Positions 1,326 through 51,019 of a stretch of DNA of 64,000 bases are shown piece by piece. Position 1 is the first letter of the stretch; every line of letters begins with the position of its first letter. Location of the stretch: the NCBI GenBank assembly GCA_030710605.1, contig CP092863.1:120385586-120449585 (forward strand). The letters are read 5' to 3'. The stretch comes from Cordylochernes scorpioides. Taxonomy: Eukaryota; Arthropoda; Arachnida; Pseudoscorpiones; Chernetidae. Under the pieces are notes generated by a model. It was not told where the DNA came from. It was given only the letters and a program-made list of their open reading frames with translations, and ran no database searches. The position numbers were made by a program, and so were the translations under genes.

Positions 1326-1936
1326 CTAAATAGTTAAATATAAATTTTTAAAATTGGCCTGTTGAATATTCCTTAGCTAGAAAGCCTTCCTTTAAAAAAC
1401 AGAATACATAACACAAAGATATAGGAAATATATTTTAAAACTCTAACAGATACATTTCGTAATTTCACATACAATCCTTAATAGCTCTAAACATAATGTA
1501 TAAAAATACAAACCCGAACAAACTATGGTCGGATACAACAAGAAAAAGTTTTATGGACCGGATTAAAGGAATGAGACCGTAATAACGGGGTTTAAAATAG
1601 CCATCTTAACGTGCTGTATAAAGTCTTATAGAAATGTATCAGATGTTTGGTGAAATACAGCAAGAAGACAGTAATGGCGACATTCATTCTCACGATAATA
1701 CTGGAACAATAGCCTTAACTATTGGAGAGAAATAGTTAACCCGGTGTGTGGTTAAAAGAGAGGGTTTAGGCTACCATTGTTTATTTACAACAATGAACTT
1801 TATCCCGGTCTTCCCCATTCTATAACAATGGGGGATTTGATATTTTCAACTCGCAGAGTATATTTGCTGCTCTAGATTTTCTTACTGTTATTTCTATTTA
1901 AAAATATTCGAAAAATCTTACGCAATACTATGAAAA
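1326..1936. other. Unassigned sequence
   Basis: Base composition is more mixed from about 1500 to 1830 than in the neighbouring sequence, but all frames are broken and no family is recognised. Confidence 0.4.
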
Positions 1937-2490
1937 AAGGCATCTCCTTATCGAGCAACTGAAATTTGCTGATGGCTTGCGCCATCTATCGGAATAAATA
2001 TAAACTATTCTCGTTGATTTTTAATTATTTCAGAATTGGCCAAATACCCATTCTTGATTTAAATTCATTTATTTATTTCAATTCAAAACGCTCTGTCTCC
2101 CTAGGGACACTTGCGCTAAATGTACATACAAATATAACAAAGAAAATATTCAACATGGAAAGATACACAGAAAGCGACTTAGAAAGATTCATAAATATTA
2201 TTTACATATATAGAGATATTCTTTGAATTTTGTTTACAGTTACATCATTAAATTTAAAAATATATACATATATACACACATATACACGCATACACCTATA
2301 TTAATTAAAGTATCAATTAAATTAATCAATATTCAATCAATAAATAAAAGAATTCTTGATTTAATCAAGAATTGGTATTTGGCCTATTCTCCAATAATTA
2401 AAAATCAACGAGAATAATTGATATTTATTCCGATAAATGGCGCAAGCCGTCAGTAAATTTTAGTTGCATGATAAGGAAATGCCTTTTTCA
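1937..2490. mobile_element. Foldback derivative of the 338-bp hammerhead element (ribozyme lost)
   Basis: The left arm (1937-2060, minus orientation) and right arm (2350-2487, plus orientation) are inverted copies of the 3' half of the retrozyme-like element at 15036-15617. They include the GATGGC...GCCATC hairpin and the ATCAACGAGAATA segment. The ribozyme half is absent between the arms. The same inverted-dimer form occurs at 32180-32440 and 48375-48625. Confidence 0.7.
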
Positions 2491-2574
2491 TAATTTATGC
2501 ACCTTATCCCAGTACAATATTACATTTGTACTGTTTTTTTTCACTTACGCAATATGTTTCTTTATTATTACAAA

Positions 2575-6723: not shown

Positions 6724-6823
6724 NNNNNNNNNNNNNNNNNNNNNNNNNNNNNNNNNNNNNNNNNNNNNNNNNNNNNNNNNNNNNNNNNNNNNNNNNNNNN
6801 NNNNNNNNNNNNNNNNNNNNNNN
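6724..6823. other. Assembly gap of 100 N
   Basis: Exactly 100 N, the conventional placeholder for a gap of unknown size. Confidence 0.99.
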
Positions 6824-11084: not shown

Positions 11085-11319
11085 TGTTGTGGGTCGGTGA
11101 TGCAAAAAGAACAGCCAAAAGAAATGATTTATGAATATAGGATTATTATTTAATATAAGGATATATGAGGATATATATGATAACACAGCAGTAAAAACAA
11201 AGGCAGGCTTAAGACTATATACAAGATGACGCACGGCAGAAGGGGAGGGCCGTTCCCATTGGTCAGTCATTTCCATGCAGCGCCGCCAAGCGGTGCCCGT
11301 GTCCACGCTTCTCTCATCA
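11085..11319 (-). repeat. copia 3' LTR
   Basis: 235 bp, nearly identical to 14748-14982; the differences seen are A/G changes in the AACACAGCAGTAAAAACAAA segment. It is preceded by the target duplicate CACAT at 11080-11084. Confidence 0.95.
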
Positions 11320-11329
11320 TTCCCCCACT
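11320..11329 (-). promoter_or_regulatory. copia polypurine tract
   Basis: AGTGGGGGAA on the minus strand directly abuts the 3' LTR, the place where plus-strand DNA synthesis is primed in LTR retrotransposons. Confidence 0.8.
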
Positions 11330-13770
11330 GAAGCGCTGGACTGGAGAACAGTTCATTAAGTCACAGGCGTTCTTGTGAGCCACTTTGCTCAGGGTCTTGG
11401 TGAAGACGTCGGCCAGGTTCTCCTTTGTAGGGATGTAGACAATCTTGATCTCTCCGCTAATTATTCTTTCTCTGACGTGATAGTATCTTATGTCAATGTG
11501 TTTGGATCTGTTGTTCTCCGCATTATTTTTGGAAAAGTCTATAGCGGATCTATTATCGCAATGAATTATCAAGGGAAAGGCAAAATTCGTTAAGAACTTT
11601 AATTCTTTCAAGATGGTAGCGATCCAAACTGCTTCCTTAGTGGTCTGGGATAGCGCTAAATATTCTGCCTCCATTGTGGAAAGTGAGACACACTTCTGTT
11701 TGCTAGTCTTCCATATGACTAAGGAATGTCCTATAGTGATAGCGGTCCCACTATTGGACCGTCTGTCATCGATGTTGCTAGCCCAATCTGCATCACTGTA
11801 TGCACAAACGTCATTGGAATCAGTCCGGCGATAAACGAGAGATAGATTTATGCTCCCGTGTAAATATCTTAAGACGTGTTTGGCAGCTTGCCAATGTCGA
11901 CGTCCAGGGTTGCTAGAGAATTGAGCTAATCTCGTAACGGAAAACATTAAGTCTGGCCTAGTACAATTCGCAAGATAAAGTCGCCATTCTAAGTCGCCAT
12001 ATAAATAAGCGTTATCTACGTCGAGATGTCTATTGTACCATTTCATGTTCAAACTTAACGTTATCAAAACTCTGATTACAGCTAAGTTAATAACAGGTGC
12101 ATAAGTTTCCTGAAAATCGATTCCTTGTTTCTGTGAGAAACCTCTAGCTACTAAACGTGCTTTGAAACGCTCTACATTTCCGCTCTCATTTGTCTTCACC
12201 TTATACACCCATCTGCTGCTAATCGGTTTCTTTCCCAGCGGTAATGTTGATAACTCCCAAGTGCCTCGTTCCTGAAGCACTCTAAGCTCATCTTCCATTG
12301 CTTTTCTCCAATACATGGCTTCGGGAGATTGGACTGCCTCTTCAAAACTTTGCGGCTCGGTAACATCTAAAAAATTTAACTCTACTCTTGGTTTACCTTT
12401 TCTCCCATATGGATTTCGAACAATGTTTTTGGAGGTGGAGGGTTGTGGTAGAGTGTCCTCTACCCCCACTGAATCCAAATTACTCGGTAATTCATTCTTT
12501 AGGTCGTTATCATGATTAGTCTCAGGTTCTAGCCAAACGTGGTTGTACCTTTCCGGTTCTGTCTCTTCGACTATTTTGGTCCACTCTAGTCCAATTTTAG
12601 ACTCATCGAATCTAACATGTTTTGTTTCAATCACCTTTTGTAATTCTGGGCACCAGAGACGATATCCACGTGTTTGAGTAGAGTATCCTACCAGAATACA
12701 TCTACATGCCCGATGGTCTAATTTTCGCCTTCTTTCTCTTGGTATATGGCTATATGCCAAACATCCAAATGCTTTTAGGTGTCTTACACTAGGATTTCTT
12801 TCTAACCAAAGTCCATCAGGTACTTTGTCTTTCAGAGCACTATTATAACATTTGTTTTTAATGTAAGCAGCTGTATTTACCGCCTCTGCCCAAAATCTTT
12901 GGGGGAGATTAGCGCTATGTAAACAAGCGCGGGCCATATCTAAAAGTGTTCGATTTACACGTTCTGCCACACCGTTAATTTGCGGAGAATACACGTTTGT
13001 GCGTTCATGCTTTATCCCTAGTTTTTGTAATTTGTCTTGGAATTCTCTATTGCAAAACTCAAGTCCATTATCCGATCGTAACACTTTAATTTTATTACCA
13101 GTTTGTCTCTCTACAGTGGCTCTATAGATATCGAAATGTTTTAATACCTCATCTTTGTTTTTAAGAAGATACACAGTAATCCTTCTTGAGAAATCATCAA
13201 CAAAAGATAGAAAGTATCTATTGCCTCCAGTTGATTTTACCGGCATTGGACCGCAAATATCTGTGTGGATAAGCTCCAAGGTCTGTTTAGATCTAATATT
13301 GCCTAGGTTTTTATGTGACGCTTTAGTGGATTTAGCGATACAACAATCGTCGCATAGGCCTTTGTCTCTAGAGGAAATTTCTAAGCCTATTACCAGCTCC
13401 TCCCGCGCCATCTTTTCAATGGCGTTACTGTCAATATGGCATAACCTTTGATGCCACGTTCTCAAGGAATTGTTCTGAAAATGGTCCCTTTCACTATTAA
13501 ATGCTGTTTTACTGGAGTTTAGGATCTTACCTTTCACAATGTAGAGGCCATTTACATTTGTCGCTTCCGCTATAATCCTGTTTTCTGGGTTGAAAACGCG
13601 AGCTACCATATTACGGAAGGTCACACGGTTGCCGTTTTCTTCTATCTTGGAGACTGACAGCAGATTCCTTCGCACATTTGGGACGTACAGCACATTGTTT
13701 AGCTTGATTTCGATGCTTTCATTATGGATAGACGTCTGGAGAAATATGTGTCCATATCCTTTGGCCTCAG
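11320..13770 (-). pseudogene. pol: copia pol (integrase, truncated RT, RNase H)
   Basis: The open frame 11267-13693 encodes 808 residues and runs into the 3' LTR. In order it has a GAG-pre-integrase segment with the zinc-binding H-x3-H...C-x2-C block (about residues 81-118), the integrase core with D145, D208 and E244 (D-D-35-E spacing), the N-terminal half of reverse transcriptase (about 455-570, including the S-S-R-W-V-Y-K motif and the D-V-D-N-A-Y first aspartate motif) and RNase H (about 635-770, Y-S-D-A-D-W). About residue 574 (near 11975) the sequence jumps from the first aspartate motif directly to N-C-T-R-P-D, which normally lies about 150 residues later. The Y-V-D-D active site is therefore deleted. 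The preceding protease reading frame continues at its 5' side in another frame. This copy cannot make functional RT. Confidence 0.92.
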
Positions 13771-14691
13771 TTGTCCACTCGCAGTCATAATAGGATCAGA
13801 TGACACCTCCCGAAAGTCAACGAACCAATCCTTGTTTCTGAATATATGGTTGGTTGCTCCGCTATCCAGCAGCCACGAATCCTCGTCGCTCGTTAGGTTG
13901 AGTGCAGCCAGGAAGTTATCTGATTTGTTTACCTTCCTCTGATAATGCTGATTATCGCGGTTTCTAGTTGTTTGCTTCATTCCTCGGCAGTTGGTGGCGA
14001 TGTGGCCGATCTTCCCGCATCGGTAGCATTTTCTTCGACTGTCGGTACTGTTGTTATTTTGAAGCTTGTTCACCTGTAGCACCTCCTTGGATGAATCCTC
14101 TTTTCTGGTTGTTCTCCTCTCGTGTTCCGTTAGCAGGACCTGCCTCACCTTGGATGACGTGAACTCATCATCCGTCATGTTGCTAAAGTTCATTATAATC
14201 CCATCATAGGAGTCTGGTAGTCCAGCTAGCATAGAGTATGCCAGATCTTCATCCTTTACTTCACATCCCGCTTCTCTGAGATGATCACTGCAGGTCTTGA
14301 ATCTTGATAGGTAATTTATCATATTTTCTTCTTCGATGAACTTGATGTTCACGAATTGTTTCTTGAGTTGAAGAATTCGCGCCCTTGATTTCGGTTCAAA
14401 TATTTGTTCCAGGGTCGTCCAGGCTTCACTTGCAGTCTTACAGTCGATAACGTGTATTTGTTGCTCTGTAGAAATCGATAGAGCAATCGTTGCCAGTGCC
14501 TTTTCTTGTTTAATTTTTGTCTTTTCATATTTTCTTTGATCCTCATCAGCGTCGATCGCTTCTTCGTTAATTACACATTCCCATAATCCTCTTTCGATCA
14601 GGAGCATCTTCATGTTAAATTTCCATGATCGATAATTGCTGCCGGTGAGCTTCTCGACGTTCAGGGCAAGCGCTTGGGAAGACGACGCCAT
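13699..14691 (-). CDS. gag: copia gag with protease start
   Basis: 330 residues, starting with M-A-S-S-S about 45 bp inside the primer-binding site. The N-terminal part (about 10-200) is the UBN2-type copia Gag fold, starting with the conserved L-x-G-x-N-Y-x-x-W motif. A CCHC zinc knuckle (C-Y-R-C-G-K-I-G-H...C) lies near residue 220. The aspartic protease motif D-S-G-A-T near residue 275 is followed shortly by the end of the frame. In copia elements gag and pol are normally one frame, so the break at about 13740-13770, after which the reading continues in a second frame, is most simply a frameshift mutation. Gag would form the particle shell and bind RNA. The frame itself is otherwise intact. 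Confidence 0.92.
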   Translation of the reverse strand: MASSSQALALNVEKLTGSNYRSWKFNMKMLLIERGLWECVINEEAIDADEDQRKYEKTKIKQEKALATIALSISTEQQIHVIDCKTASEAWTTLEQIFEPKSRARILQLKKQFVNIKFIEEENMINYLSRFKTCSDHLREAGCEVKDEDLAYSMLAGLPDSYDGIIMNFSNMTDDEFTSSKVRQVLLTEHERRTTRKEDSSKEVLQVNKLQNNNSTDSRRKCYRCGKIGHIATNCRGMKQTTRNRDNQHYQRKVNKSDNFLAALNLTSDEDSWLLDSGATNHIFRNKDWFVDFREVSSDPIMTASGQLRPKDMDTYFSRRLSIMKASKSS

Positions 14692-14736
14692 CTTGGTTTC
14701 ACTTACTTTTCGTTCTTTTTAATGCAGCTAACCACG

Positions 14737-14747
14737 CTCTGCTACCA
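14737..14747 (-). promoter_or_regulatory. copia primer-binding site (initiator tRNA-Met)
   Basis: TGGTAGCAGAG on the minus strand immediately follows the 5' LTR and is complementary to the 3' end of animal initiator tRNA-Met (CTCTGCTACCA). Confidence 0.9.
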
Positions 14748-14982
14748 TGTTGTGGGTCGGTGATGCAAAAAGAACAGCCAAAAGAAATGATTTATGAATA
14801 TAGGATTATTATTTAATATAAGGATATATGAGGATATATATGATGACACAGCAGTGAAAACGAAGGCAGGCTTAAGACTATATACAAGATGACGCACGGC
14901 AGAAGGGGAGGGCCGTTCCCATTGGTCAGTCATTTCCATGCAGCGCCGCCAAGCGGTGCCCGTGTCCACGCTTCTCTCATCA
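14748..14982 (-). repeat. copia 5' LTR
   Basis: 235 bp; followed in the plus reading by the target duplicate CACAT (14983-14987). It would carry the element's promoter. Confidence 0.95.
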
Positions 14983-15092
14983 CACATATATATTATATAT
15001 TATATTATATTTTATATTTGAACGATAGGCTCATTCATGATTTTTCAGGATGCCTTAATGACCAATTTTTTGGTCGTTGAGGTACAGCTTGC

Positions 15093-15134
15093 ACCACGCT
15101 GATGAGGGCCAACAGCCCGAAACGCGTCCGTGGT
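15093..15134 (+). ncRNA. Hammerhead ribozyme, type I, unit 1
   Basis: Stem I: ACCACG (15093-15098) pairs with CGTGGT (15129-15134), 6 of 6. Core: CTGATGA (15099-15105). Stem II: GGGC (15106-15109) and GCCC (15115-15118) with loop CAACA. Then GAA (15119-15121), stem III palindrome ACGCGT (15122-15127) and C (15128) at the cleavage position, giving a GUC-type site. All invariant core positions are present. Stem III is too short to close well in one molecule, so, as in other minimal-stem-III hammerheads, two motifs may pair as a dimer. Confidence 0.88.
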
Positions 15135-15430
15135 TAGCTTTTCTTGATTAATCAAGAATGGGTATTTGGCCAATTCTGGAATAATTAAATATCAACGAGA
15201 ATAGTTGATATTTATTCCGACAGATGGCGCCAGCCATCAGCAACTTTCAGTTGCACGATAAGGAGATGCCTTTTTCTTAATTTATGCACCCTTTCCCAGT
15301 ACAATGTTACATTTGTACTATTTTTTCACATTGTGTAGCGTCCTCACGCAATTCTGGCCTTAACTACCCGTTTCATGATTTTTCAGGATGCCTTAATGAC
15401 CAATTTTTTGGTCGTTGAGGTACAGCTTGC

Positions 15431-15472
15431 ACCACGCTGATGAGGGCCAACAGCCCGAAACGCGTCCGTGGT
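15431..15472 (+). ncRNA. Hammerhead ribozyme, type I, unit 2
   Basis: Identical to the motif at 15093-15134 and exactly 338 bp downstream. The predicted cleavage positions are C15128 and C15466, so self-cleavage of a read-through transcript would release a 338-nt RNA. Confidence 0.88.
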
Positions 15473-15634
15473 TAGCTTTTTTTGATTAATCAAGAATGGG
15501 TATTTGGCCAATTCTGGAATAATTAAAAATCAACGAGAATAGTTGATATTTATTCCGACAGATGGCGCCAGCCATCAGCAACTTTCAGTTGCACGATAAG
15601 GAGATGCCTTTTTCTTAATATTATATATTATATT

Positions 15635-15855
15635 TGTCGCATACCTCGACATATTTGCATGGTATTGTTTTATTTTGTATATTCTGTATATTTGCATATT
15701 TACTTTTTGTTTTTTAAAAAGGATGGTTGATTTTGCATGTCCGCAAAAAGCGCGAGGTATAAAATATAGGTCAAGAGAATAATAAAGTAGAGTTCTGTTG
15801 ATTAGAATCTTTTAGTGTTTCTTTAAAACTAGTTCTTATATTGGGAACTCGATAA
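15635..15855 (+). repeat. gypsy 5' LTR
   Basis: Starts TGTCGC and ends CGATAA, so it lacks the usual terminal CA. It contains GTATAAAATATAGG (TATA-like) at about 15757-15770 and AATAAAG about 20 bases later. Confidence 0.93.
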
Positions 15856-15857
15856 CT

Positions 15858-16832
15858 ATGGCGCAGCCGGCAGGATCACTAGTCTTATATTTCAGGGATG
15901 ATAAGGTGATTGGAGTTGGTTTACACTCTGGTGAGGAGATTATTGACATTCCAGAAGAATACCAGTCACCAGAGTGTCATGAAAGGACTTTTAGGTATGG
16001 CAAGAAACCAATGGCTTTTTATCTGAAAAAGGATTCAAACCGATTTGTTGGCGTTCCAACTGGCCTTATACAATGGTATGCAAATGGAGAATTTGATAAG
16101 ATTAAGCTTATTAAGCAAGACATGCAAGAGGAAGAAACGGACTTGGCAGATTCGACCATGGAGAGTATCCTCAGGACGATGGCCAACCAGCAGCGTTTAA
16201 TGACCGACTTTCTGCTTACTAATAAGAGTGAAATCAGGGTAGATAGGCCAGTCAAAATGGATGTGGCTACCTTTGATGGAAGAAACGTGGATCCTAAAAT
16301 TTGGATAAAAATATATGAAAACATCTGTGAAAACAACGGATGGGTTAGAGACAAGGCTAGAATCAATGGAATGCGATCATACCTAACAGGATCGGCCTTG
16401 TTATGGTTCGACAACAAATACCAGGATGAAGAGGAATATTGTTGGAAGGATTGGAAGCAGGAATTTATTGATTCTTTTAACGAAAATCCCATTGTGAGTT
16501 ATGACCGTGCTTTCAATTGGAGATATCGAGGAGGATCCTTGGTGGAGTATTTTTACCAGAAACAAGGAAAGATGCGACTTGGTATGCCTGGCCTTAGTGA
16601 GGAATTGTTGATTATTGGGATAATTCATGGACTTCCCCAGCATATGCAGGAACAACTGGCCACGGCAAATATCAAATGCAAGCAAAGTCTACTCAAACTC
16701 CTGGAGAACATCAGGCCGTCTGCAAGAACTCCTGGCACAGTCAAGAAACCAGTTCATTTCACTGGAAATAGTGACACGAGGTTATACCAGGCGGAAAATG
16801 ATGGAAATGGTTCGTATTTGTCAAAAAACTGA
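15858..16832 (+). CDS. gag: gypsy gag
   Basis: 324 residues starting with M-A-Q-P-A-G, only two bases after the 5' LTR, so the start codon overlaps the likely primer-binding site (TGGCGCAGCCGG). The C-terminal half (about 125-280) shows the pattern of a retrotransposon Gag capsid domain (W-x-x-x-Y...G...A-x-x-W-F...W-x-x-F). No CCHC zinc knuckle is visible, which is seen in some gypsy lineages. The stop TGA (16830-16832) is directly preceded by A-AAA-AAC in the correct frame, a canonical -1 slippery heptamer, so a fraction of ribosomes could continue into the protease frame. Gag would form the virus-like particle. The N-terminal 100 residues are not recognised. Confidence 0.85.
   Translation: MAQPAGSLVLYFRDDKVIGVGLHSGEEIIDIPEEYQSPECHERTFRYGKKPMAFYLKKDSNRFVGVPTGLIQWYANGEFDKIKLIKQDMQEEETDLADSTMESILRTMANQQRLMTDFLLTNKSEIRVDRPVKMDVATFDGRNVDPKIWIKIYENICENNGWVRDKARINGMRSYLTGSALLWFDNKYQDEEEYCWKDWKQEFIDSFNENPIVSYDRAFNWRYRGGSLVEYFYQKQGKMRLGMPGLSEELLIIGIIHGLPQHMQEQLATANIKCKQSLLKLLENIRPSARTPGTVKKPVHFTGNSDTRLYQAENDGNGSYLSKN
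16823..16829 (+). promoter_or_regulatory. Putative -1 ribosomal frameshift site (AAAAAAC)
   Basis: The heptamer A-AAA-AAC lies in the gag frame immediately before the gag stop codon. The protease frame is exactly -1 relative to gag. The position and form fit the X-XXY-YYZ rule. A downstream pseudoknot was not established by eye. Confidence 0.7.
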
Positions 16833-17047
16833 CGAGTATGGGTTCGCCGATCCCATGGTCAAAATCGACCATTTTTTCGATTTGTGATTCTCCCCATTCC
16901 TTAATTGATGTGACAATAAACTCTCACTTAGTAAAGGCCTATCTGGACAGCGGTTCTTCTCTTAACCTGATACACGAAAATTTAACACAAAAAAAACAAG
17001 TGGAAAACATACCCTACCAAGACTTTAATAAACACGATCAACCATAA
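16830..17047 (+). CDS. pro: gypsy protease (in -1 frame)
   Basis: The -1 frame from the slippery site contains the retropepsin active-site motif L-D-S-G-S-S (the D-S/T-G triad) about 40 residues after the shift, preceded by a hydrophobic strand as in other gypsy proteases. The frame stops at 17045-17047. The second half of the protease (including the P-F-D-L-L-I-G block) is encoded in the next frame, at the start of the pol reading frame (17082 onward, open from about 17019). A single-base indel, possibly in the A9 run at 16989-16997, or a second recoding event would be needed to join them. Protease cleaves the Gag and Gag-Pol polyproteins. Confidence 0.75.
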
Positions 17048-19742
17048 TAAATTCACTGCTACCGAAGCCATTGATCTGGTTTTGGAGGCTGGGGAGCAAA
17101 CAATCAAGATCCAGGCTATTGTCCTTCCAGATATGCCCTTTGATCTGTTAATTGGTAAGCCTACGTTAAAATCCTTGAAAGTGAAGTGGGACTTCTTTAC
17201 AGATCAAATCAGTTTCTTTTCTGAAACTGGCCCGAACTTTGTTACCAGGAGGGATGTCGAGGTCAAATACCCCAGCCTTTGCAAAAGGACTTCGCCAATA
17301 ATTTCAAAATTTGAGGTGGACTTTGGACTGCAAGAAAACTTTCGAGTTGTCAGTGCAAAGCCATATCGATTGGAGAATACCAAAAGAAACTGGTTAAATG
17401 TAAAAATTAGATCGATGCTAAGCGAAGGAATAATTAGACCATCGAACTCGGCATTTGCATCTCCATGCATAGTAATTCCAAAAAAGAATGGAGACTATCG
17501 ATTATGTGTCGACTATCGAAGGATTAACGATGAAACACTTTTGGATCCTTTTCCCTTTCCTCAAATAGACGACATTATTAATGTGTTCGGAGGATGTCGT
17601 TTTTTCTCAAAACTCGACTTGAAGGATGGATTTTGGCAACTTGGCGTATCAGAAAATACTCGAAAATACACTGCCTTCGTAACTCCATCTGGTCATTACG
17701 AGTTTCTAAAGCTTCCGTTTGGATGGAAGAATTCTCCAGCTAAGTTCCAGAGAATAATGACTACAATTCTAGGAGACCTACTGGGTGATAAGGTGGTAGC
17801 TTATATCGATGACATCTGTTGTGGTGGCTATACTCAGGAGGATTGCTCCATTTTGACGCATAGAATTCTTGAACGACTGACCACTGCGGGCCTAGTGTTA
17901 AATCTTGATAAGTGTCAATTTTGCGTCCCTCGCATAGACTTATTGGGGAGAGTTATTGATGGAGACACAAAGAAAATAAGGGCTGAAGTTACCGAAAAGG
18001 TTCGAAATATGAAACGTCCATACAATTTGAGGTCCTTACAGTGTTTCACCGGATTGACTAATCATTTCCGCGCCTTTATAAAAGATTATGCTCACATAGT
18101 AAGACCATTGGACAAATTAAAAGGAAAAGATGTAACCTTCGAATGGGATTCTGAATGCGAGACGGCCTACCAAAAACTTATCGCACTTATTACTGAGGAA
18201 CCAATTCTTAGGGTTCCTGATGGGAGATTGCCATTCGAGCTATCAACGGATGCCAGCTACTATGGAACGGGAGCCATTTTATATCAAAGGGACCTCCAAG
18301 AAAAAAGATGTAAACAACTTCGGGTAATTAGCTATTACTCCTACACCTTTACAAAAGCCGAACAAAATTATTCCGTTACCGAGAAAGAGTGCTTGGCGGT
18401 ATTAAAGGCTGTGAAACATTTTCGTTCCTACTTGGAGAGTCGCCCTTTTGTGGTACATACTGATCACAGAGCCTTAACTCAACTTTTAAGTTGTGGAGAA
18501 CTTAGAGACCGTTTAGCCAGGTGGCAGTTATTCCTGCGCTCCTTTAATATCATAATAAATCATCGGTCGGGAAAGGAACTGAGGGACGCCGACGCGTTGT
18601 CACGATTATGTGTAAGCGTCCCAGACAAGTCTGATGAACAGACGTTCTGGTTGAAGCATAAAGCTTTAGAGCTGGAATACGACGAACAGAGAAAGTCCTA
18701 TTTGGTGACTCCTGAACAAGTTTCTAGCATTCTCGGCTTGTATCATGATGATCCGAAATCCGGTGGCCACTCGGGATTCTGGAGGACTTATTATACAATT
18801 AAGAATCGATTTTGGTGGCGAAATATGAAGGGGGACATTCGACGTTATGTCCAAACGTGTTCCACCTGTCAGAGGGTAAAGGCCAAATATAGATCTACCT
18901 CTGACCAGATGAGTTTGCCTGTTCAATCTCATGTTCCCTTTCATACGGTTCATGTGGACTTCGCAGAACTCAAAAAGAAATCAGAATCCAATGCCTCTGC
19001 CCAGTCATTCTTAGTAGTGATTGATGAAGCTACTCGGATTGTATACGCCAAAAGTATGAAACAGTCGGGTAAAGCCCTAAAGGAATACTTTGCGGACCAT
19101 CCCATTCTTAAAAATGTAAAGAAAATTATTTCCGATCGAGGTACCTCCTTTACTCGAGGGGAATTTTACAACTGGACGCAGGAGAAGGGAATCGAGTTTC
19201 TTCATACCAGTCCATATCACCCTGCGGGAAATGGTCTGGCCGAGAGAGTAATTCAAGAAATTAAGACCTTCATGGAATGCTACCCACAGTTCCCTAAAGG
19301 ATGGAAATGTTGCTTGGAGGCAGCCGTCCATTATCATAATCGACATCATAATACCTATCTGGGATGCTCTCCATGGTACAAATGGAAGGGAACAGTGCCG
19401 GTAGTGCCTGCTGACGAGGAATTGGGCTTACAACTCCATAGAATTGAAACGGAGAATAATGACAAACAGCGCCATAACTACCGTCTGCGCACGAAATATT
19501 ATTACAACCGAAATCGAAGAAGACCTGCTGATGTCAAACCTGGAGATTCGATTCTGGTGAAACACCAATACACAGGTAAACAGCGACTGCAGACTGGACC
19601 TCATGTTGTTACTGATGTAAAGATGGTGGACGGCTGTGTTAAATATGTCCTCTATGAATCAGAACGAGGAACCCAGAGTGCCCACATCACCAACATCATT
19701 AAGTTTCATCATAGACCACCAGGAGTCCCATCACGGGAGTGA
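17043..19742 (+). CDS. pol: gypsy pol: protease end, reverse transcriptase, RNase H, integrase
   Basis: The 886-codon frame counted from the first ATG at 17082 is open further upstream, so it is probably read without its own ATG. Residue positions count from 17082. Protease C-terminal block D-L-L-I-G at 21-25. RT about 95-300, with L-D-L-K-D-G at 178-183, L-P-F-G at 211-214 and the catalytic Y-I-D-D at 241-244. RNase H about 385-500, with D390, E435 and D461. Integrase: zinc finger H555, H563, C593, C596, then the core D626, D685, E721 (D-D-35-E). The C-terminus after about 800 is basic, with no clear chromodomain. It copies element RNA into DNA and inserts it. Intact apart from the frame relation to the protease start. 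A polypurine tract follows at 19753-19763. Confidence 0.95.
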   Translation, partial: HNKFTATEAIDLVLEAGEQTIKIQAIVLPDMPFDLLIGKPTLKSLKVKWDFFTDQISFFSETGPNFVTRRDVEVKYPSLCKRTSPIISKFEVDFGLQENFRVVSAKPYRLENTKRNWLNVKIRSMLSEGIIRPSNSAFASPCIVIPKKNGDYRLCVDYRRINDETLLDPFPFPQIDDIINVFGGCRFFSKLDLKDGFWQLGVSENTRKYTAFVTPSGHYEFLKLPFGWKNSPAKFQRIMTTILGDLLGDKVVAYIDDICCGGYTQEDCSILTHRILERLTTAGLVLNLDKCQFCVPRIDLLGRVIDGDTKKIRAEVTEKVRNMKRPYNLRSLQCFTGLTNHFRAFIKDYAHIVRPLDKLKGKDVTFEWDSECETAYQKLIALITEEPILRVPDGRLPFELSTDASYYGTGAILYQRDLQEKRCKQLRVISYYSYTFTKAEQNYSVTEKECLAVLKAVKHFRSYLESRPFVVHTDHRALTQLLSCGELRDRLARWQLFLRSFNIIINHRSGKELRDADALSRLCVSVPDKSDEQTFWLKHKALELEYDEQRKSYLVTPEQVSSILGLYHDDPKSGGHSGFWRTYYTIKNRFWWRNMKGDIRRYVQTCSTCQRVKAKYRSTSDQMSLPVQSHVPFHTVHVDFAELKKKSESNASAQSFLVVIDEATRIVYAKSMKQSGKALKEYFADHPILKNVKKIISDRGTSFTRGEFYNWTQEKGIEFLHTSPYHPAGNGLAERVIQEIKTFMECYPQFPKGWKCCLEAAVHYHNRHHNTYLGCSPWYKWKGTVPVVPADEELGLQLHRIETENNDKQRHNYRLRTKYYYNRNRRRPADVKPGDSILVKHQYTGKQRLQTGPHVVTDVKMVDGCVKYVLYESERGTQSAHITNIIKFHHRPPGVPSRE

Positions 19743-19752
19743 TGGGGGGTCA

Positions 19753-19763
19753 TGGAGGGGGAG
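19753..19763 (+). promoter_or_regulatory. gypsy polypurine tract
   Basis: GGAGGGGGAG lies immediately upstream of the 3' LTR, at the expected place for plus-strand priming. Confidence 0.8.
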
Positions 19764-19765
19764 TC

Positions 19766-19986
19766 TGTCGCATACCTCGACATATTTGCATGGTATTGTT
19801 TTATTTTGTATATTCTGTATATTTGCATATTTACTTTTTGTTTTTTAAAAAGGATGGTTGATTTTGCATGTCCGCAAAAAGCGCGAGGTATAAAATATAG
19901 GTCAAGAGAATAATAAAGTAGAGTTCTGTTGATTAGAATCTTTTAGTGTTTCTTTAAAACTAGTTCTTATATTGGGAACTCGATAA
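19766..19986 (+). repeat. gypsy 3' LTR
   Basis: 221 bp, no difference found from the 5' LTR. It is followed by the target duplicate TATT and then by the interrupted AT-rich repeat. Confidence 0.93.
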
Positions 19987-25800: not shown

Positions 25801-25864
25801 AAATATAATGCTATTTACACATAGTAAAACAGAGATGTCGAAAATCGTGATGAAAAACAAAATA

Positions 25865-26165
25865 AAAGGTGCATCTTCTGATCGTGCAACTAAAAATTGC
25901 TGATAGCTTGCGCCATCTATCGGAATAAATATCAACATTTTTTTTTTTTTTTGTATTATTCCAAAATTGACCCAATACCTTTTTTTTTATTATTAAGAAA
26001 GTTAATTATGTACGAGTTTCGGGCTGTTGGCCCTCATCAGCATGGTACAAGCTGTACCTCAGCGACCAACAAAGTTGGTCTTGGGAACATCCTAAATAAT
26101 CATGAAACGGGTATTTAGGGCGGAAAGGTGTGAGAACGCCAAACTATGTGAAAACATAGTATAAA
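25865..26165 (-). mobile_element. Retrozyme-like element, subfamily A, minus-strand copy
   Basis: Diverged single copy of the unit at 15036. The 3' tail (TGATCGTGCAACT, TTGCTGATAGCTTGCGCCAT) is at 25872-25935, a T/A-rich expansion lies in the middle, then the ribozyme at 26005-26046 and the head (CATGAAACGGGTATTTAGGG in plus reading). Confidence 0.8.
26005..26046 (-). ncRNA. Hammerhead ribozyme, degenerate
   Basis: CTGATGA (26034-26040), stem II GGGC (26030-26033) / GCCC (26021-26024) and GAAA (26017-26020) are intact. Stem III is ACTCGT, with A at the cleavage position. Stem I is reduced to about 3 pairs. The catalytic core is preserved, but low activity is expected. Confidence 0.65.
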
Positions 26166-26600
26166 ACTTGAATTGTACTTGAATATGATGGGTATATTAA
26201 GAAAAGAGGCATTTTCCAATTATTATTATTATTATTATTATTATTAAAAGAGAAGAAAGAAATATTTCAAGCAAATAGTAACCAGAATTCAATAATTGAA
26301 TAAAATTAGGCTTAATAAAGGAACAAATTTGCTTAACAATAAATTTGTTGCGCAATTACTATTAGTGATACTATTTGAATATATGATAATAAGAGGCTAT
26401 ATAATAAATGTGTATACTGAGAAAATACCTTTCTTTTATTTAGTTATCCTAAATCCCAAGCTTTCGGACATGGCTCTTCTTCAAGTGTTGCGTAAAATAT
26501 AACTATACGAATAGAGGGGCTTTATAAGTATAACTGCTATAATTTGTTCATTAATATAACTCTATATTCAATTAGATGTAAAAAAGCATCAATAGAAAAA
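26166..26600. other. Unassigned, with (ATT)n run and a GAAAGCTT relic
   Basis: An (ATT)n microsatellite of about 9 units lies at 26218-26246. At 26455-26490 the minus strand reads TTGAAGA, GAGCCATGTCC, GAAAGCTTG, a degenerate hammerhead-like relic of the family at 4195-4555. Confidence 0.45.
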
Positions 26601-28525: not shown

Positions 28526-28625
28526 NNNNNNNNNNNNNNNNNNNNNNNNNNNNNNNNNNNNNNNNNNNNNNNNNNNNNNNNNNNNNNNNNNNNNNNNNNN
28601 NNNNNNNNNNNNNNNNNNNNNNNNN
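28526..28625. other. Assembly gap of 100 N
   Basis: Exactly 100 N of unknown true size. The left flank is the start of a 118-bp repeat unit. Confidence 0.99.
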
Positions 28626-30884: not shown

Positions 30885-31150
30885 TATCTAAATTTGACCT
30901 TAAATACCCATTTCTTGGTTTCTCAAGAAGCCTCTGGGACCAAAAATCTTTTTGATAACAGTGGTACAGCTTGCTCCACGCTGACGAGCGCCAACAGCGC
31001 GAAACGCGTTCGTGGATGGCTTGATTTATCAAGAAATTGGGTTGGCCAAATATCAGGGAACAGGCTAAATCAATGTTTAGTTGATTTCTATTCCACCAGA
31101 TGACGCTCTGAAAAGCATATGTGCTCCTGGTCAGGATATACCTACTTTGT
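30885..31150 (+). mobile_element. Retrozyme-like element, subfamily B
   Basis: Same layout as the unit at 15036 (head TACCCATTTCTTGGTTTCTC, TGGTACAGCTTGC, ribozyme, CTTGATTTATCAAG, tail ATTTCTATTCCACCAGATGA), but diverged throughout. It ends near TGGTCAGGATATACC. Shared with 35980-36140. Confidence 0.8.
30976..31015 (+). ncRNA. Hammerhead ribozyme, subfamily B
   Basis: Stem I CCACG (30976-30980) / CGTGG (31011-31015); CTGACGA (30981-30987); stem II GCGC (30988-30991) / GCGC (30997-31000), loop CAACA; GAAA (31001-31004); stem III ACGCGT (31004-31009); T31010 at the cleavage position. Against subfamily A, a stem II pair changes from G-C to C-G on both sides (GGGC/GCCC to GCGC/GCGC), a compensatory change. 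U in place of C at position 17 predicts slower cleavage. Confidence 0.82.
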
Positions 31151-31560: not shown

Positions 31561-32179
31561 TTTCGATTTCTCATTTTTTAATTTCAATGAATTAAAGTCA
31601 TGCTGATATTTTCGTAACTATTCCGTATAAAAAAAAAGCGTTAGCCAATTCTGCACATATAGGTAATATTTTTAAAATCTATTAACTATTTTTTTTTATA
31701 AATTATTTCAAGGTAACTGAAAAAAAAAACTTTTTAAAAAGATTCTGCGCATGTAACTGCGCATCCCAATTAAATTTTCAGACGACGGGTTAAAATTCAT
31801 GAGGCGGACCTGATTATTTAGGGGATTGGCAGTGTCGCCAGCTGGTAAATAAAACATGGCCGGACAAAGATTCGTCTGCCAATAATTGTTTTCTGCTTCG
31901 TCAGATCGTCTGCCTTTTTTTTTTATTCCGCACCTTCCACCGGTTAACTCCATCTTGTTGGGAGTCTTTTCAAGCCTTTCCTTAATCACATTCATTCTTC
32001 TACTTCATCGAATTCAGCGATGAGAGGATTACATACTTACATATCTCATTTTTTTAATTATACGTTGAGAGAAGGTTTGAAAAATTGTCGAAAGCTCTTC
32101 TCTAAAATTAAAAGAAAATATATTTAGTCAAAAAGTGAAATTTTAATGGGAAATCAGGTTGATAAAAAAAATAAAAAAG
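31561..32179. other. Unassigned; mixed-composition block at 31740-32000
   Basis: 31740-32000 is less AT-rich, contains two TGCGCAT words, GCCAGCTGG, CACCGGTTAACTCCATC and one TTCGTCTGC (31871-31879). A minus frame of 95 codons is open there but ends in poly-lysine/phenylalanine runs and is not recognised. It may be a first exon or promoter region. Confidence 0.3.
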
Positions 32180-32440
32180 TATCTCCTAATCGTGCAATTG
32201 AAATTTGCTGATGAGTTGCGCCATCTATCGGAATTAATATCAACTAATCGATGATTTTTAAATATTTAATTACAAAATATTAGCCTAAATAGTCTTTTTA
32301 ATTAATCCAATAAAATCCTAAGAATAGTTGGGATTATTCTGGAAAAATTAAAATTTAACGATTAATTGATATGTATTCCGATAGATGGCGCAAGCCATCA
32401 TCAACCTTAAATTTAAATATTCAGGAAGGGATTTTTGTTT
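32180..32440. mobile_element. Foldback derivative of hammerhead element (ribozyme lost)
   Basis: Left arm minus-type tail (TCCTAATCGTGCAATTGAAA, GCGCCATCTATCGGAAT); right arm plus-type tail (ATTCCGATAGATGGCGCAAG). The centre keeps a little of the middle region. The ribozyme segment is absent. Confidence 0.7.
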
Positions 32441-32690
32441 ATTTATCAAACTAATCTCGGTATAGTTTCATTTTTTAATTATTATTTTTTTATTATTCTA
32501 AAATGGTTTGGGGTTTAATGAAATAAATTTTGTAGTATATGCGTGCTATACCCACGAATATGTAAATTTTGCCATCGAAAAGGCTCATGTGAGCGATCAG
32601 GAAATTCTTATTTTGTTTTTAATATCAAAACTTGACCATTTTTTCTATTTTTACTTGTTTTTTCACATATATATGTCATAATATATACTT
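32441..32690. other. No gene seen
   Basis: AT-rich with a short retrozyme-tail-like end (GCTCATGTGAGCGATCAGG). Confidence 0.35.
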
Positions 32691-35884: not shown

Positions 35885-36140
35885 ACGTATAAACGCTATG
35901 GTCAGGATAGGCTTTCTTTATTTTTAATATCAACACCTGAACCACTTTTTTTCTATTGTTTTGTTCGTGTGTTAAGCGTATTTACGCAAATTTGGCCTTA
36001 AATACCCATTTCTTGGTTTCCCAAGAAAGCCTCTTAGACCAAAAATCTTTTTGGTCGCAGTGGTACAGCCTACTCCACGCTGACGAACGCCAAAAGCGCG
36101 AAACGCGTTCGTGGATGGCTTTTCTTGATTTATCAAAGCG
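35885..36140 (+). mobile_element. Retrozyme-like element, subfamily B
   Basis: Preceded by a tail fragment of a previous unit (GGTCAGGATAGGCTTTCTTT to about 35960), then the head TACGCAAATTTGGCC, ribozyme and CTTGATTTATCAA. The order tail then head fits the remains of a head-to-tail dimer. Confidence 0.75.
36075..36114 (+). ncRNA. Hammerhead ribozyme, subfamily B, copy 2
   Basis: CCACG / CGTGG stem I; CTGACGA (36080-36086); stem II ACGC / GCGC with one A-C mismatch, loop CAAAA; GAAA; stem III ACGCGT; T at position 17. Slightly degenerate relative to 30976-31015. Confidence 0.75.
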
Positions 36141-36270: not shown

Positions 36271-36545
36271 TCTCGTCAAAATAGACGTCAAAACTAGACG
36301 CCATCTATTGACCGTCGCCGCAAACTAGCGGCCTCGGGTCAGTGACAAAGCCACAACACCAGCTTTGGCAAACTGAAAAACGTCCACCTAGAGATCATGG
36401 TTTCGGGCTAATGGCCCTCGTCAGCCTAGGGCGGCTTTTCAGTTTGCCAAATCTGGTTTTGTGGCTTTGTCACCGACCCGAGGCTGTTAGTTTGCGACGA
36501 CGGTCAATAGATGGCGTCTAGATTTGATGTCTATTTTGACGGAAA
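36271..36545. mobile_element. Foldback element C with central hammerhead
   Basis: Arms of about 110 bp: TCGTCAAAATAGACGTCAAA, GACGCCATCTATTGACCGTC, CCTCGGGTCAGTGACAAAGC and GGCAAACTGAAAA on the left, inverted complements on the right. The two arms meet around a hammerhead motif on the minus strand. The arms alone are found at 38825-38950, and a rearranged copy at 46975-47345. Confidence 0.85.
36384..36430 (-). ncRNA. Hammerhead ribozyme in foldback C
   Basis: Minus strand: stem I CCTAGG (36425-36430) pairs with TCTAGG after the cleavage position (6 pairs, one G-U); CTGACGA (36418-36424); stem II GGGC (36414-36417) / GCCC (36405-36408), loop CATTA; GAAA (36401-36404); stem III ACCATGAT with one mismatch; C36393 at position 17. 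The related copy at 47107-47114 has the perfect stem III palindrome ACCATGGT, indicating the ancestral form. Confidence 0.75.
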
Positions 36546-38690: not shown

Positions 38691-39260
38691 CAAAAAAAAG
38701 TTTACTTTTCGTATTTATTAGAATTTGCAAGCTTTCGAGTTAAAGAACTCTTTCTCAGACGCTTCTTCCAAATATATATTTAGATGGAAATTTTTCTGGG
38801 AGGATATTGTTCTAAAGAGATAAAGGTCGCCTCTCCCGTCAAAATAGACGTCAAAACTAGACGCCATCTATTGACCATCGCCGCAAACTAGCGGCCTCGG
38901 GTCGGTGACAAAGCCACAACACCAGATTTGACGTCTATTTTGACGGGAGAGGCGACATTTGTCTCTTTAGATATATATATATATATGTATTACATAAATA
39001 TTTACACAGTTTATCCATATATAACAAGACAAGGTCACATGTTCCACCACAACAGTGAAGGTATCAGTAAGGTGACATAAAAGTATCAGTGAATATTTGA
39101 AGTGAATTTATAAAACCAATATGCAAAAGTAAGTCCGATGGGCTCGAGTCCAGCTGTTTACAAATATCTATTTTTAAAATGTTTATTACCTTCAATAAAA
39201 GCTCGTGAAAAATATATTTAACTCGAAAGCTTGTCTCTATATGCAAATAAATTAGATTTT
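38691..39260. mobile_element. Foldback of GAAAGCTT family invaded by foldback C
   Basis: Outer arms: CTCCCGCAAAAAAAAG...TTTGCAAGCTTTCGAGTT at 38688-38750, complement AACTCGAAAGCTTG at 39208-39222. Minus strand at 38740-38785 shows CTGAGAA, stem GAGTT/AACTC, GAAAGCTTGC (hammerhead order, G8 lost). Inside lies a ribozyme-less foldback C (38825-38950). Confidence 0.6.
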
Positions 39261-43948: not shown

Positions 43949-44753
43949 AACATTTATAGACAGAATTTAAGGAAGTTGTACCTTTTACCATGTATATTCG
44001 GATTGGGACAATGACTCTGAAAGATATTACAGTGACCTCTATTGAAGACACACGAGATAACCAATATACACTCATGGACAAAAATCAAGGAAGTTGTACC
44101 TTTCAGCATGTATATCGGGATTGAGACAATAACTCTGAAAGATATTACAGTGACCTTTATTGAAGATACACGAGATAACCAATATACACTCATGGACAAA
44201 AATCAAGGAAGTTGTACCTTTCAGCATGTATATCGGGATTGAGACAATAACTCTGAAAGATATTACAGTGACCTTTATTGAAGATACACGAGATAACCAA
44301 TATACACTCATGGACAAAAATCAAGGAAGTTGTACCTTTCAGCATGTATATCGGGATTGAGACAATAACTCTGAAATATATTACAGTGACCTATATTGAA
44401 AACACACGAGATAACCAATATACAGTCATGGACAAAAATCAAAGAAGTTGTACCTTTCAGCATGTATATCGGGATTGAGACAATAACTCTGAAAGATATT
44501 ACAGTGACCTTTATTGAAGACACACGAGATAACCAATATACACTCATGGACAAAACTTAAGGAAGTTGTACCTTTTACCATGTATATCGGGATTGAGACA
44601 ATAACTCTGAAAGATATTACAGTGACCTTTATTGAAGATACACGAGATAACCAAATGTGAACAACCTCTGCCTCCTTCAAAAAATAATAATAATACAAAC
44701 GATCAGTGACATCAAAGACTTTTCACTTTCTATTTTTTCCCCATGAGAGTGTA
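43949..44753 (+). repeat. 118-bp satellite array in a Tc1-like MITE, 6 units, plus orientation
   Basis: Unit starts recur every 118 bp (about 43949, 44067, 44185, 44303, 44421, 44539). Each begins with the MITE terminal repeat ACACTCATGGACAAAA and continues GGAAGTTGTACC, GGGATTGAGACAATAACTC, TATTACAGTGACC. After the last unit come the non-repeated end and the outer inverted tip CCATGAGAGTGTA (44753). Open frames of about 81 codons on both strands are a by-product of the repeat. Confidence 0.95.
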
Positions 44754-45563: not shown

Positions 45564-46720
45564 AACACTCATGGACTAAACTTAAGAAAGTGGAAAGACT
45601 TTGATGTCGAAGGTCGTCTCTTTTTTTTATTTAAGAAGACAGAGTTAATTTTGTTCATGTTTGGTTATCTCGTGTATCTTCAATGAAGGTCACTGTAATA
45701 TCTTTCAGAGTTATTGTCTCAATCCCGATATATATGCTGAAAGGTACAACTTCCTTAAGTTTTGTCCATGAGTGTATATTGGTTATCTTGTGTGTCTTCA
45801 ATAAAGGTCACTGTAATATCTTTCAGAGTTATTGTCTCAACCCCGATATACATGCTGAAAGGTACAACTTCCTTAAGTTTTGTCCATGAGTGTATATTGG
45901 TTATCTCGAGTGTCTACAATAAAGGTCACTGTGATATCTTTCAGAGTTATTGTCTCAATCCCGATATACATGCTGAAAGGTACAACTTCCTTAAGTTTTG
46001 TCCATGAGTGTATATTGGTTATCTCGTGTATCTTCAATAAAGGTCACTGTAATATCTTTCAGAGTTATTGTCTCAATCCCGATATACATGCTGAAAGGTA
46101 CAACTTCCTTAAGTTTTGTACATGAGTGTATATTGGTTATCTCGTGTATCTTCAATAGAGGTCACTGTAATATCTTTCAGAGTTATTGTCTCAATCCCGA
46201 TATACATGCTGAAAGGTACAACTTCCTTAAGTTTTGTCCATGAGTGTATATTGGTTATCTCGTGTTCTCAATAAAGGTCACTGTAATATCTTTCAGAGTT
46301 ATTGTCTCAATCCCGATATACATGCTAAAAGGTACAACTTCCTTAAGTTTTGTCCATGAGTGTATATTGGTTATCTCGTATGTCTTCAATAAAGGTCACT
46401 GTAATATCTTTCAGAGTTATTGTCTCAATCCCGATATACATGCTAAAAGGTACAACTTCCTTAAGTTTTGTCCATGAGTGTATATTGGTTATCTCGTGCG
46501 TCTTCAATAAAGGTCACTGTAATATCTTTCAGAGTTATTGTCTCAATCCCGATATACATGCTAAAAGGTACAACTTCCTTAAGTTTTGTCCATGAGTGTA
46601 TATTGGTTATCTCGTATGTCTTCAATAAAGGTCACTGTAATATCTTTCAGAGTTATTGTCTCAATCCCGATATACATGCTAAAAGGTACAACTTCCTTAA
46701 GTTTTGTCCATGAGTGTATA
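45564..46720 (-). repeat. 118-bp satellite array in a Tc1-like MITE, 9 units, minus orientation
   Basis: It starts with the non-repeated MITE end (ACACTCATGGACTAAACTTA, GTCGAAGGTCGTC), followed by about nine units (period 118; one unit at 46244-46349 is about 12 bp shorter) and closes with TTTTGTCCATGAGTGTA. Neighbouring units share variants (GTATGTC in alternate units, GCTAAAAGG in the last five), which indicates local duplication of two-unit blocks. Confidence 0.95.
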
Positions 46721-46974
46721 TCGGTTGAAATTGTTTTAATTCGACACTGTATGGAGATAGAAAATATGGTCAATGGAGATATTGAGGAAGGAAAATTGTG
46801 GGCAGTATTTGAAAGTAGAGATTCGGAAGAGAATGAGAAAAAATGAGTTGATAAGATAAAAAATAAAGATATCTTGAAAAGAGATTGAAAGAGGAACGAA
46901 GCTTGTTAAAAACCATTAGAGAAAGACAAATTATATATATAATTTCTCTAATGGTTTTCATATATATAAACAAA
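46721..46974. mobile_element. Unassigned plus short palindrome
   Basis: 46860-46970 repeats the AAACCATTAGAGAAAGAC palindrome of 36167-36270. 46721-46860 is unassigned. Confidence 0.5.
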
Positions 46975-47092
46975 GATCACTTCTCTCGTCAAAATAGACG
47001 TCAAAACTAGACGCCATCTATTGACCTTCGCCGCAAACTAGCGTCCTTGGGTCGGTGACAAAGCCACAACACCAGCTTTGGCAAATTGAGAA

Positions 47093-47140
47093 GTGTCCAC
47101 CTAGAGACCATGGTTTCGGGCTAATGGCCCTTGTCAGTAC
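47093..47140 (-). ncRNA. Hammerhead relic with perfect stem III palindrome
   Basis: Minus strand: CTGACAA (47131-47137; the core G is mutated to A), stem II GGGC/GCCC with loop CATTA, GAAA, stem III ACCATGGT (47107-47114) and C at position 17. The 5' half of stem I is replaced by unrelated sequence, so it is inactive. Confidence 0.6.
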
Positions 47141-47574
47141 AGAGCGGACTTTATTCCATAAGATCTACATAGGATCCAATGGAATCTTCACAATCTGCCA
47201 AAGAGTTGTTTAGCTGGTAAAGTGGCTAGTTCAAATCTATGGTCAAAATACAGATGGAATTTTTGACCGGAGGATATTGATCTATAAAAAAAAAAAAGGT
47301 CACCTCTCCCGTCAAAATAGACGTCAAAATATACGAAAAAAGTTTCCGACGTATGATATTCATGTACCTATACAGAGAGGCACCTCTCCCTTTATACTCA
47401 GATATACAGGTTGTTGGATTTTGTCAGAAGTTTCTAAAACTGCTATTTTTTCCTTTTTTATCACTACTAGTGAAGTATTTTACTGTGTGGGTGGATAAAC
47501 ATAATTTGTCGTTTCGATTCATATTTAAAGGGAAAGATGATTTTCTAGGAACATATATAATTTCTAATACAATA

Positions 47575-48374: not shown

Positions 48375-48625
48375 CTATCTCTGGATCGTGAAACTAAAAT
48401 TAGCTGATGGTTTGCGCCATCTATCGGAATAAATATCAACTAATCGTTGATTGTCTAGGGTAACAGTCTGATACGAGTATGTGGTTGGTTTTTCTTTATT
48501 TATTAATAAAAGGCATTTAGTCAATATTCTGGAATAATTTAAAAAAAAAACGATTAGGTAATATTTATCCCGGTAGCTGGCGCAAACCAATAGGCAATTT
48601 TTAGTTTCACGAACAGAAGTGGACT
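48375..48625. mobile_element. Foldback derivative of hammerhead element (ribozyme lost)
   Basis: Left arm TAGCTGATGGTTTGCGCCAT and right arm GTAGCTGGCGCAAACCAATA are inverted tails of the 15036 family, with an unrelated centre. Confidence 0.65.
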
Positions 48626-50945: not shown

Positions 50946-51019
50946 TATATGTTGTGGCGAAGAAATAATTTATATTTTATTATTTAATTTAATTATTTAG
51001 GTGAAGAAAGAGAAAAAAC

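Follow-up and report, generated by a model that had tools for sequence, protein, structure and literature searches.

The tandem 338-bp hammerhead unit studied here, which lies in a 64,000-nucleotide stretch of DNA from the pseudoscorpion Cordylochernes scorpioides (the window), most probably represents a metazoan non-LTR retrozyme family of this species that is mobilised in trans by Penelope-like elements (PLEs). The predominant insertion form among the loci mapped in the genome is a pair of head-to-head arms whose outer ends lie at two different fixed sites and whose units share the same template sequence, and selected PLEs of the same genome display a matching tail asymmetry.

The focal copy consists of a full 338-bp unit (15034-15371, plus strand; its 5' end is element position 91, numbering from 15282) and a second unit of 248 bp (15372-15619, plus strand), the 3' end of which lies at start site I. 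The first-pass annotation described two near-identical units with a period of 338 bp; period and near-identity hold (two differences, at 15143 and 15190, across the 248 common positions), but copy 2 stops at 248 bp, so the focal copy amounts to 1.73 units. Two further unit 1 differences, at 15282/15284, are situated beyond the end of copy 2. The 338-bp unit contains no long ORF (the longest stretch free of stops on the circle has 49 codons) and no LTR, PBS or PPT of its own (PBS and PPT were judged by eye; the adjacent LTRs belong to a Copia and a Gypsy element). Folded as a circular 338-nt RNA it reaches -114.7 kcal/mol versus -70.7 +/- 5.4 kcal/mol for 200 shuffles (z -8.2). An 18-bp perfect palindrome, TTCTTGATTAATCAAGAA (15141-15158, plus strand), is located directly 3' of the predicted cleavage site and is intact in 129 of 145 genomic units. 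The start site I region (..GATGCCTTTTTCTTA) occupies 15261-15281 and again 15599-15619, the latter being the real 3' end of the focal copy, and a 'tail' (15282-15331) leads from site I to site II (..TTTGTACTATTTTTTCA, about 15328), all on the plus strand.

Both focal units carry a type I hammerhead with a complete invariant core. Hammerhead 1, including an outer helix AGC/GCT, spans 15086-15139 and hammerhead 2 spans 15424-15477 (both on the plus strand); by direct reading of the sequence, their CTGATGA cores begin at 15099 and 15437, respectively. Helix I is ACCACG/CGTGGT (6 bp) and helix II is GGGC-CAACA-GCCC, accompanied by GAAA and by a GTC triplet with predicted cleavage after C15128 and C15466, so that the core, the paired 6-bp stem I and the triplet are present in the sequence just as the first-pass annotation had claimed. 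A hammerhead descriptor found four sites in the window (15099, 15437 and 30981 on the plus strand and 36424 on the minus strand) and one site in total on both strands of 300 dinucleotide shuffles of the window. Rfam at the gathering threshold returned three tRNAs and no hammerhead across the window. In a permissive search the best model was Hammerhead_HH9 (RF02275), with which the whole motif aligns, yet at 27.3 and 26.5 bits (whole-window E = 0.013 and 0.024 for the two focal hammerheads), about half of the gathering cut-off of 52 bits; a covariance-model score below threshold is what the first-pass annotation had named as evidence against its own proposal. We do not consider this score decisive: HH9 represents another and narrow family, and the remaining evidence is stronger. 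The hammerhead pattern of the focal family had no match in collections of viral contigs and genome contigs, and a looser pattern with the ACGCGT helix III matched six viral contigs, none of which (0/6) had both helix I and helix II.

Despite the sub-threshold Rfam scores, covariation and constraint support the predicted motif. In the six window copies with a preserved hammerhead, three base pairs are changed on both sides, and these double changes include helix I A-U to U-A and helix II G-C to C-G in subfamily B (from 30968 and 36064). The number of doubly changed cells (5) and the covariation score were each reached by 1 of 500 shuffles, six rows being few; two measures are weaker, as 28 of 500 shuffles reached the count of doubly changed pairs and 181 of 500 that of pair types. 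The 43 hammerhead columns hold 12 distinct variant events versus 159 in the 249 columns elsewhere (P 0.0015), and complete hammerheads are identical in 129 of 139 genomic units (locus L031 dropped). No consensus structure emerged when the 3' domain of 12 copies was analysed with alifold.

Helix III in both focal units is A-CGCG-U, that is, one A-U base pair capped by a palindromic tetraloop (ACGCGT at 15122-15127 and 15460-15465, plus strand), and the hammerhead is therefore probably dimeric. The hammerhead organisation of the first-pass annotation thus stands for the complete core but probably not for a simple monomeric ribozyme. ACGCGT is intact in 141 of 143 genomic units, and ACGCGU is self-complementary between copies (-7.5 kcal/mol). 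In a 586-nt transcript the helix I strands pair across the two copies already in the free minimum; the folding energies are -210.9 kcal/mol unconstrained, -210.4 kcal/mol for the double hammerhead with free cores and -207.9 kcal/mol for two single ones, which places the double hammerhead 0.5 kcal/mol above the minimum and 2.5 kcal/mol better than two singles. With such a helix III, cleavage probably needs two copies, as in the newt/axolotl type, and the folding energies are compatible with this. The hammerhead HHR_Amex1 of the axolotl likewise has a one-base-pair helix III under a palindromic tetraloop, as does the newt satellite hammerhead, and HHR_Amex1 cuts poorly alone and better as a dimer (PMC7229834, in part); the host phylum differs from ours, and the likeness is to the description in that paper, not to body sequences. 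Among the type I hammerheads of invertebrates, the majority are able to fold a stable helix III and cleave in monomeric form (PMC7761336, in part).

The 2.62 Gb genome of C. scorpioides was searched with the unit; the best 40 of 1362 candidate places were scored and yielded 173 matches, and 36 loci from among the matches listed were mapped, making 37 with the focal one, a sample that favours long, well-matched copies. At 29 of the 37 loci a minus arm is followed head-to-head by a plus arm (one of them, L020, is cut by the stretch end). One outer end lies at site I and the other at site II in 27 of the 28 uncut two-armed loci, while I/I or II/II combinations do not occur (0). Site I corresponds to element position about 338 and site II to about 50, i.e. 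388, approximately 48 nt downstream. The exception, L018, has its left end at 123 and its right end at II. Since L030 and L031 look like copies of one insertion, 26 of the 27 I/II loci are independent. The tailed arm may be on either side (left arm II in 17, I in 10). One-armed loci are the focal one, L015, L037 and L047 (site I) and L038 (site II), L015 having a second block at the stretch edge that ends at II; the other loci that are not two-armed are L049 (a foldback), L050 (ending at 145) and L035 (cut). The head-to-tail dimer described in the first-pass annotation is not the usual form: with its single arm and an end at site I, the focal copy is a minority product. In L049 (G000:C20:35361100-35363100) the arms are joined tail-to-tail inside an AGTACAA..TTGTACT hairpin, as if synthesis had reversed there.

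The arms comprise 0.27-6.01 contiguous units, and 59 of 69 (cut arms included) exceed one unit; in these 59 no ORF is found between successive units, which directly adjoin. Unlike the outer ends, the 5' ends of the arms are scattered around the unit (Rayleigh P about 0.08, n=69), with 3 of 69 lying within 10 nt of the cleavage site, and the junctions between arms range from a 12-nt overlap to a 3-nt gap, once 22. Long homogeneous arrays at few loci were not seen among the 40 best places; the copies are dispersed over many contigs.

Insertion favours AT-rich targets: (AT)n of at least four repeats occurs within 30 nt of 40 of 63 arm ends versus 2.6% of random window stretches. Flank repeats of at least 8 bp were found in 29 of 32 insertions (L018, L020, L035, L049 and L050 are left out of this count) versus 53% of flank pairs from different loci; as unrelated flanks are AT-rich and so often reach this length, the comparison is a weak test of target site duplication (TSD) at (AT)n targets. 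Where they can be judged, the target duplications are about 10-16 bp long. Because (AT)n flanks match by chance, the case for duplication rests on four clear non-(AT)n loci (L021 ATAAATATTGTTA, L025 ACAAAGAAAAATTA, L033 CAAATAAAACTAT and L045 ACATACATATATG) together with a pair in the window, pair A.

The window contains 13 family copies (E up to 3.4e-5), 12 beyond the focal one. Pair A (1934-2539) is an older two-armed copy with arms at 1934-2059 (minus) and 2353-2539 (plus) and 293 bp of filler; one 11-bp repeat, CTTACGCAATA, brackets the pair as a whole rather than its individual members, and none of 400 random pairs of flanks has a repeat as long. Both arms of pair A start at the 18-bp palindrome, but the palindrome was rejected as the arm-joining point because genome-wide just 3 of 69 starts lie there. 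Pairs B (32125-32487) and C (48359-48637) are decayed head-to-head pairs, and copy c26 (25861-26216, minus) is a diverged copy of 1.04 units with a decayed hammerhead; no TSD was seen at these three. A further diverged copy (50705-50956, plus) ends at site II. Of the two subfamily B copies, the one at 30891-31143 (plus) has an intact hammerhead with the compensatory helix I and II changes and the one at 35944-36138 (plus) a hammerhead with one helix II mismatch.

Three weaker family matches were also found in the window, two of which belong to a second, distinct hammerhead family (GGGC-CATTA-GCCC, helix III ACCATGRT) at 36274-36541 (hammerhead at 36424, minus) and 46943-47152. This hammerhead sits at the tip of a 268-bp foldback and scores 32.6 and 21.9 bits with the R1 model; related foldback copies without it occur at 38781-38978, and the foldback is possibly a MITE-like element carrying a hammerhead. 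Other repeats of the window are a 118-bp satellite-like repeat in seven short arrays (26683, 28870, 43969-44654, 45661-46726, 48757, 53031 and 59843), a dispersed repeat with GGTTCACCACTGATGAGCCAGGCCC or close variants (7273, 27147, 31199, 31469, 34275, 52823, 62789 and others) that resembles the hammerhead core with the rest absent, and a 130-bp tandem repeat (55881-56177) that contains retrozyme 3' end fragments. Two runs of 100 N (6724-6823 and 28526-28625) are probably assembly gaps.

The focal copy is flanked by a 44-bp direct repeat. Its left copy (14992-15035, plus strand) ends in a TT that also fits the unit, and the right copy is interrupted after 15 bp (15620-15634, plus strand) and resumes from 19991 past a Gypsy LTR element (15635-19986, plus strand; 4-bp TSD TATT) whose LTRs (15635-15855 and 19766-19986) are identical at 221 of 221 positions; once the Gypsy element and its 4-bp duplication are removed, the right flank repeats exactly the 44 bp left of the retrozyme. 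Upstream lies a Copia LTR element (11085-14982, minus strand; LTRs 98.7% identical, 5-bp TSD CACAT), and the best matches of its gag frame are C. scorpioides proteins, with 94 and 92% identity (94% of the query) and 99% identity (41% of the query). Neither LTR element is part of the retrozyme. The 44-bp repeat may be a long TSD or, given a third copy left of the Copia element (from 10973) and duplications of about 10-16 bp at the judgeable two-armed loci, an older tandem target. Among 18 chosen ORFs of the window, including an antisense frame within the Gypsy element, Pfam searches identified a mariner transposase and a sub-threshold zf-RVT match and no PLE domain.

The head-to-head arms with unequal ends have a counterpart in the PLEs of this genome. 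A search for the GIY-YIG family, in which 150 of 17015 candidate places were scored (146 matches), provided seven PLE places (L071-L077) that were picked for two matches facing away from each other within about 4 kb, the head-to-head arrangement being hence a selection criterion. In all seven selected pairs one arm ends near TTTTTTCAAGAAA and the other continues for about 34-48 nt (..GAATGCCGGCCAGGCAGCCTCTATCTTCACGATA). Four pairs have flank repeats of 14, 14, 12 and 12 bp, a length of 12 being reached by 2 of 42 cross-pair controls; of the remaining pairs, one has a flank repeat of 9 bp, a length seen in the controls too, and the other two are located in (AT)n and in a tandem repeat, respectively. 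A minimal hammerhead-like core is present at the PLE ends that were read. The DNA common to the unit and three of the PLE pairs (L071-L073) does not exceed 17 bp, and family fragments occur in 3 of 20 GIY-YIG stretches of about 3.2 kb (L054, L062 and L063), which is about what chance would give, or less, at a family density of 13 in 64 kb. The short PLE end and retrozyme sites I and II (15261-15328 in the window) are each preceded by 5-6 consecutive T and then C, and CACGATAAG is found near a start site in the PLEs (L071-L077) and the retrozyme alike; these could be a common recognition feature or chance.

In rotifer PLEs the inverted pLTRs lie head-to-head, one of the two bears a tail, the TSDs measure 8-10 bp and filler has been captured (PMC3846280, in part), and a lizard PLE cuts and extends both strands at AT-rich DNA and has two internal start sites, the interval between which equals the genomic tail (PMC11167929). 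The unit hence shares with PLEs (PMC3846280, in part; PMC11167929; L071-L077) the head-to-head arms, the one-sided tail, the AT-rich target, a palindrome, a hammerhead and a short TSD (about 8-14 bp in PLEs), and differs in that PLEs encode a reverse transcriptase and a GIY-YIG endonuclease and have a minimal hammerhead, whereas the unit is noncoding with a full-size one. Two properties of the lizard PLE count against the reading that we prefer: its hammerhead activity is dispensable for insertion in vitro, and its start sites do not differ between strands (PMC11167929).

The two arms of a locus were copied from the same sequence. Units differ by 0.40% within an arm, by 0.38% between the arms of one locus and by 1.25% between loci. 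Mixing of alleles within arms at seven informative columns amounts to 6 of 314 cells versus 27.7% when units are dealt randomly (lowest of 500: 22.1%), and a minor allele is also present in the partner arm in 42 of 45 cases versus 752 of 3435 (22%) in arms of other loci. Columns 1-10, 37-60 and 327-338 were omitted from the mixing and constraint counts, because the apparent mixing there (columns 1 and 48) comes from flank letters aligned beyond arm ends, and so was locus L031, the apparent copy of L030; gap alleles were dropped from the mixing count, and blocks of at most 94% identity (one block, in L048) from the unit comparison and both of these counts. From the alleles common to partner arms it follows that the RNA sequence copied is the same in both. 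Each arm is a repetition of a single unit, which is what repeated passage round one circle should produce; the template may instead have been sister molecules or a multimer from a single, very uniform array. At element position 264 the minor allele T occurs just in the target-adjoining unit of the site-I arm (L019, L030/L031 and L048).

We propose that in read-through transcripts of an array two hammerheads would pair through the ACGCGU palindrome and then cut, and that the 338-nt unit RNA would be ligated into a circle, as the sequence and the known members of this class of elements suggest. A PLE-type enzyme would make a staggered cut, offset by about 10-16 bp, in an (AT)-rich target. The circle would then be reverse-transcribed from both DNA 3' ends, starting at site I from one of them and at site II, some 48 nt downstream, from its partner. 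Each cDNA would roll round the circle over a variable distance, and the two cDNAs, joined head-to-head mostly at a short overlap, would give a two-armed insertion flanked by the target duplication. Cleavage, circularity of the RNA and the identity of the mobilising enzyme are the parts of this scheme that we infer. We see an even chance that one circle is copied twice per insertion, that a PLE-type enzyme gives each end of the break its own fixed start and that PLEs are built likewise.

The circle itself has a possible, albeit less probable, substitute in a long multimeric transcript of a genomic array, in which case hammerhead cleavage would not be needed for insertion. Arms of up to six units, uniform if they come from one uniform array, would suit such a template, as would the arm 5' ends, which do not cluster at the cleavage site, and PAc inserts unprocessed RNA in vitro (PMC11167929). 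However, the units of existing arms do differ by about 0.4%, yet alleles are rarely mixed at the informative sites, and the hammerhead is under constraint. Ordinary satellite DNA that had spread by unequal exchange and whose hammerhead was decayed or fortuitous would account for the head-to-tail 338-bp units, but hardly for copies that are dispersed on many contigs (at the 40 scored places) in arms of at most about six units with conserved ends, or for a hammerhead that varies less than the remaining unit; we find this explanation highly improbable.

The unit would be no independent circular retrozyme if it were a PLE pseudo-LTR or a deletion derivative of a PLE and its head-to-tail units were pLTR tandems. 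The arm architecture, the alternation of the tail, the palindrome and the hammerhead are all as in PLEs, retrozymes have been proposed to derive from PLEs by reduction (PMC11722881, in part) and family fragments do occur in GIY-YIG stretches, though at a frequency expected by chance. This origin is nevertheless unlikely, given an arm structure devoid of ORFs between units, a longest stop-free run of 49 codons, the similarity of at most 17 bp to the PLEs L071-L073 and a hammerhead that is full and not of the minimal PLE type. A LINE that mobilises the retrozyme by ordinary one-sided target-primed reverse transcription, with twin priming as the source of the inverted arms, seems more doubtful still. 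Fixed 3' ends with scattered 5' ends suit any target-primed process, and the sub-threshold zf-RVT match in the window is weakly LINE-like; twin priming, however, yields an inverted internal piece without a fixed outer end, whereas both outer ends are fixed and different in 27 of 28 uncut two-armed loci, and the PLE pairs of the same genome behave alike (7/7 selected).

The retrozyme-like identity put forward by the first-pass annotation is borne out by the features of metazoan non-LTR retrozymes (Acropora, Mytilus, axolotl; PMC7229834, in part) that can be checked in sequence: a type I hammerhead, tandem repeats of about 150-450 bp with a GC content below 50% (338 bp and 0.414 in the unit), a noncoding unit without LTR, PBS or PPT of its own, strongly self-paired RNA, an abundance of copies and dispersed mobile copies with a TSD >4 bp when present, as at the clear non-(AT)n loci and pair A. 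Plant LTR retrozymes are noncoding too, with hammerhead dimers and a proposed circular RNA intermediate (PMC4918200, in part), but unlike the focal family they have type III hammerheads in LTRs, a PBS and a PPT and a 4-bp TSD (PMC7229834 and PMC7761336, both in part). The focal family differs from the metazoan retrozymes by a weak helix III like that of amphibians, here in an arthropod, and, as far as the metazoan retrozymes are described in PMC7229834 (in part), by insertions in which two arms lie head-to-head and the 3' ends are fixed at two alternative sites. The main text of that paper, which already names PLEs as candidate partners of metazoan retrozymes, does not contain the words 'inverted', 'head-to-head' or 'microsatellite' (PMC7229834, in part). 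In the literature collection searched, no paper mentioned both retrozymes and a head-to-head arrangement and, judged by titles, none on arachnid hammerhead ribozymes dealt with such an element. The element is a new retrozyme family, and its novelty lies in the two-armed pattern, the common template and the resemblance to PLEs within one genome. The 12 further window copies, the weak helix III, the 44-bp flanking repeat with the Gypsy element in its right copy and the genome-wide two-armed form go beyond the first-pass annotation, whose interpretation likewise did not include the Penelope-type insertion signature.

If the proposed two-ended copying is true, every complete insertion with two arms has a single short end and a single tailed end. 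The genome offers about 1300 more candidate places for scoring. The question of the partner is directly testable, because the start sites and the target are known and a purified PLE system exists (PMC11167929). The insertions of this family carry the signature of PLEs, with one start site per arm and evidence of a common template sequence, and thereby hint at the machinery by which such RNA circles spread in animals. Two-ended copying would also explain the inverted structure of PLEs themselves, i.e. their inverted pLTRs and one-sided tail, and retrozymes would be trans-parasites of this two-ended reaction.
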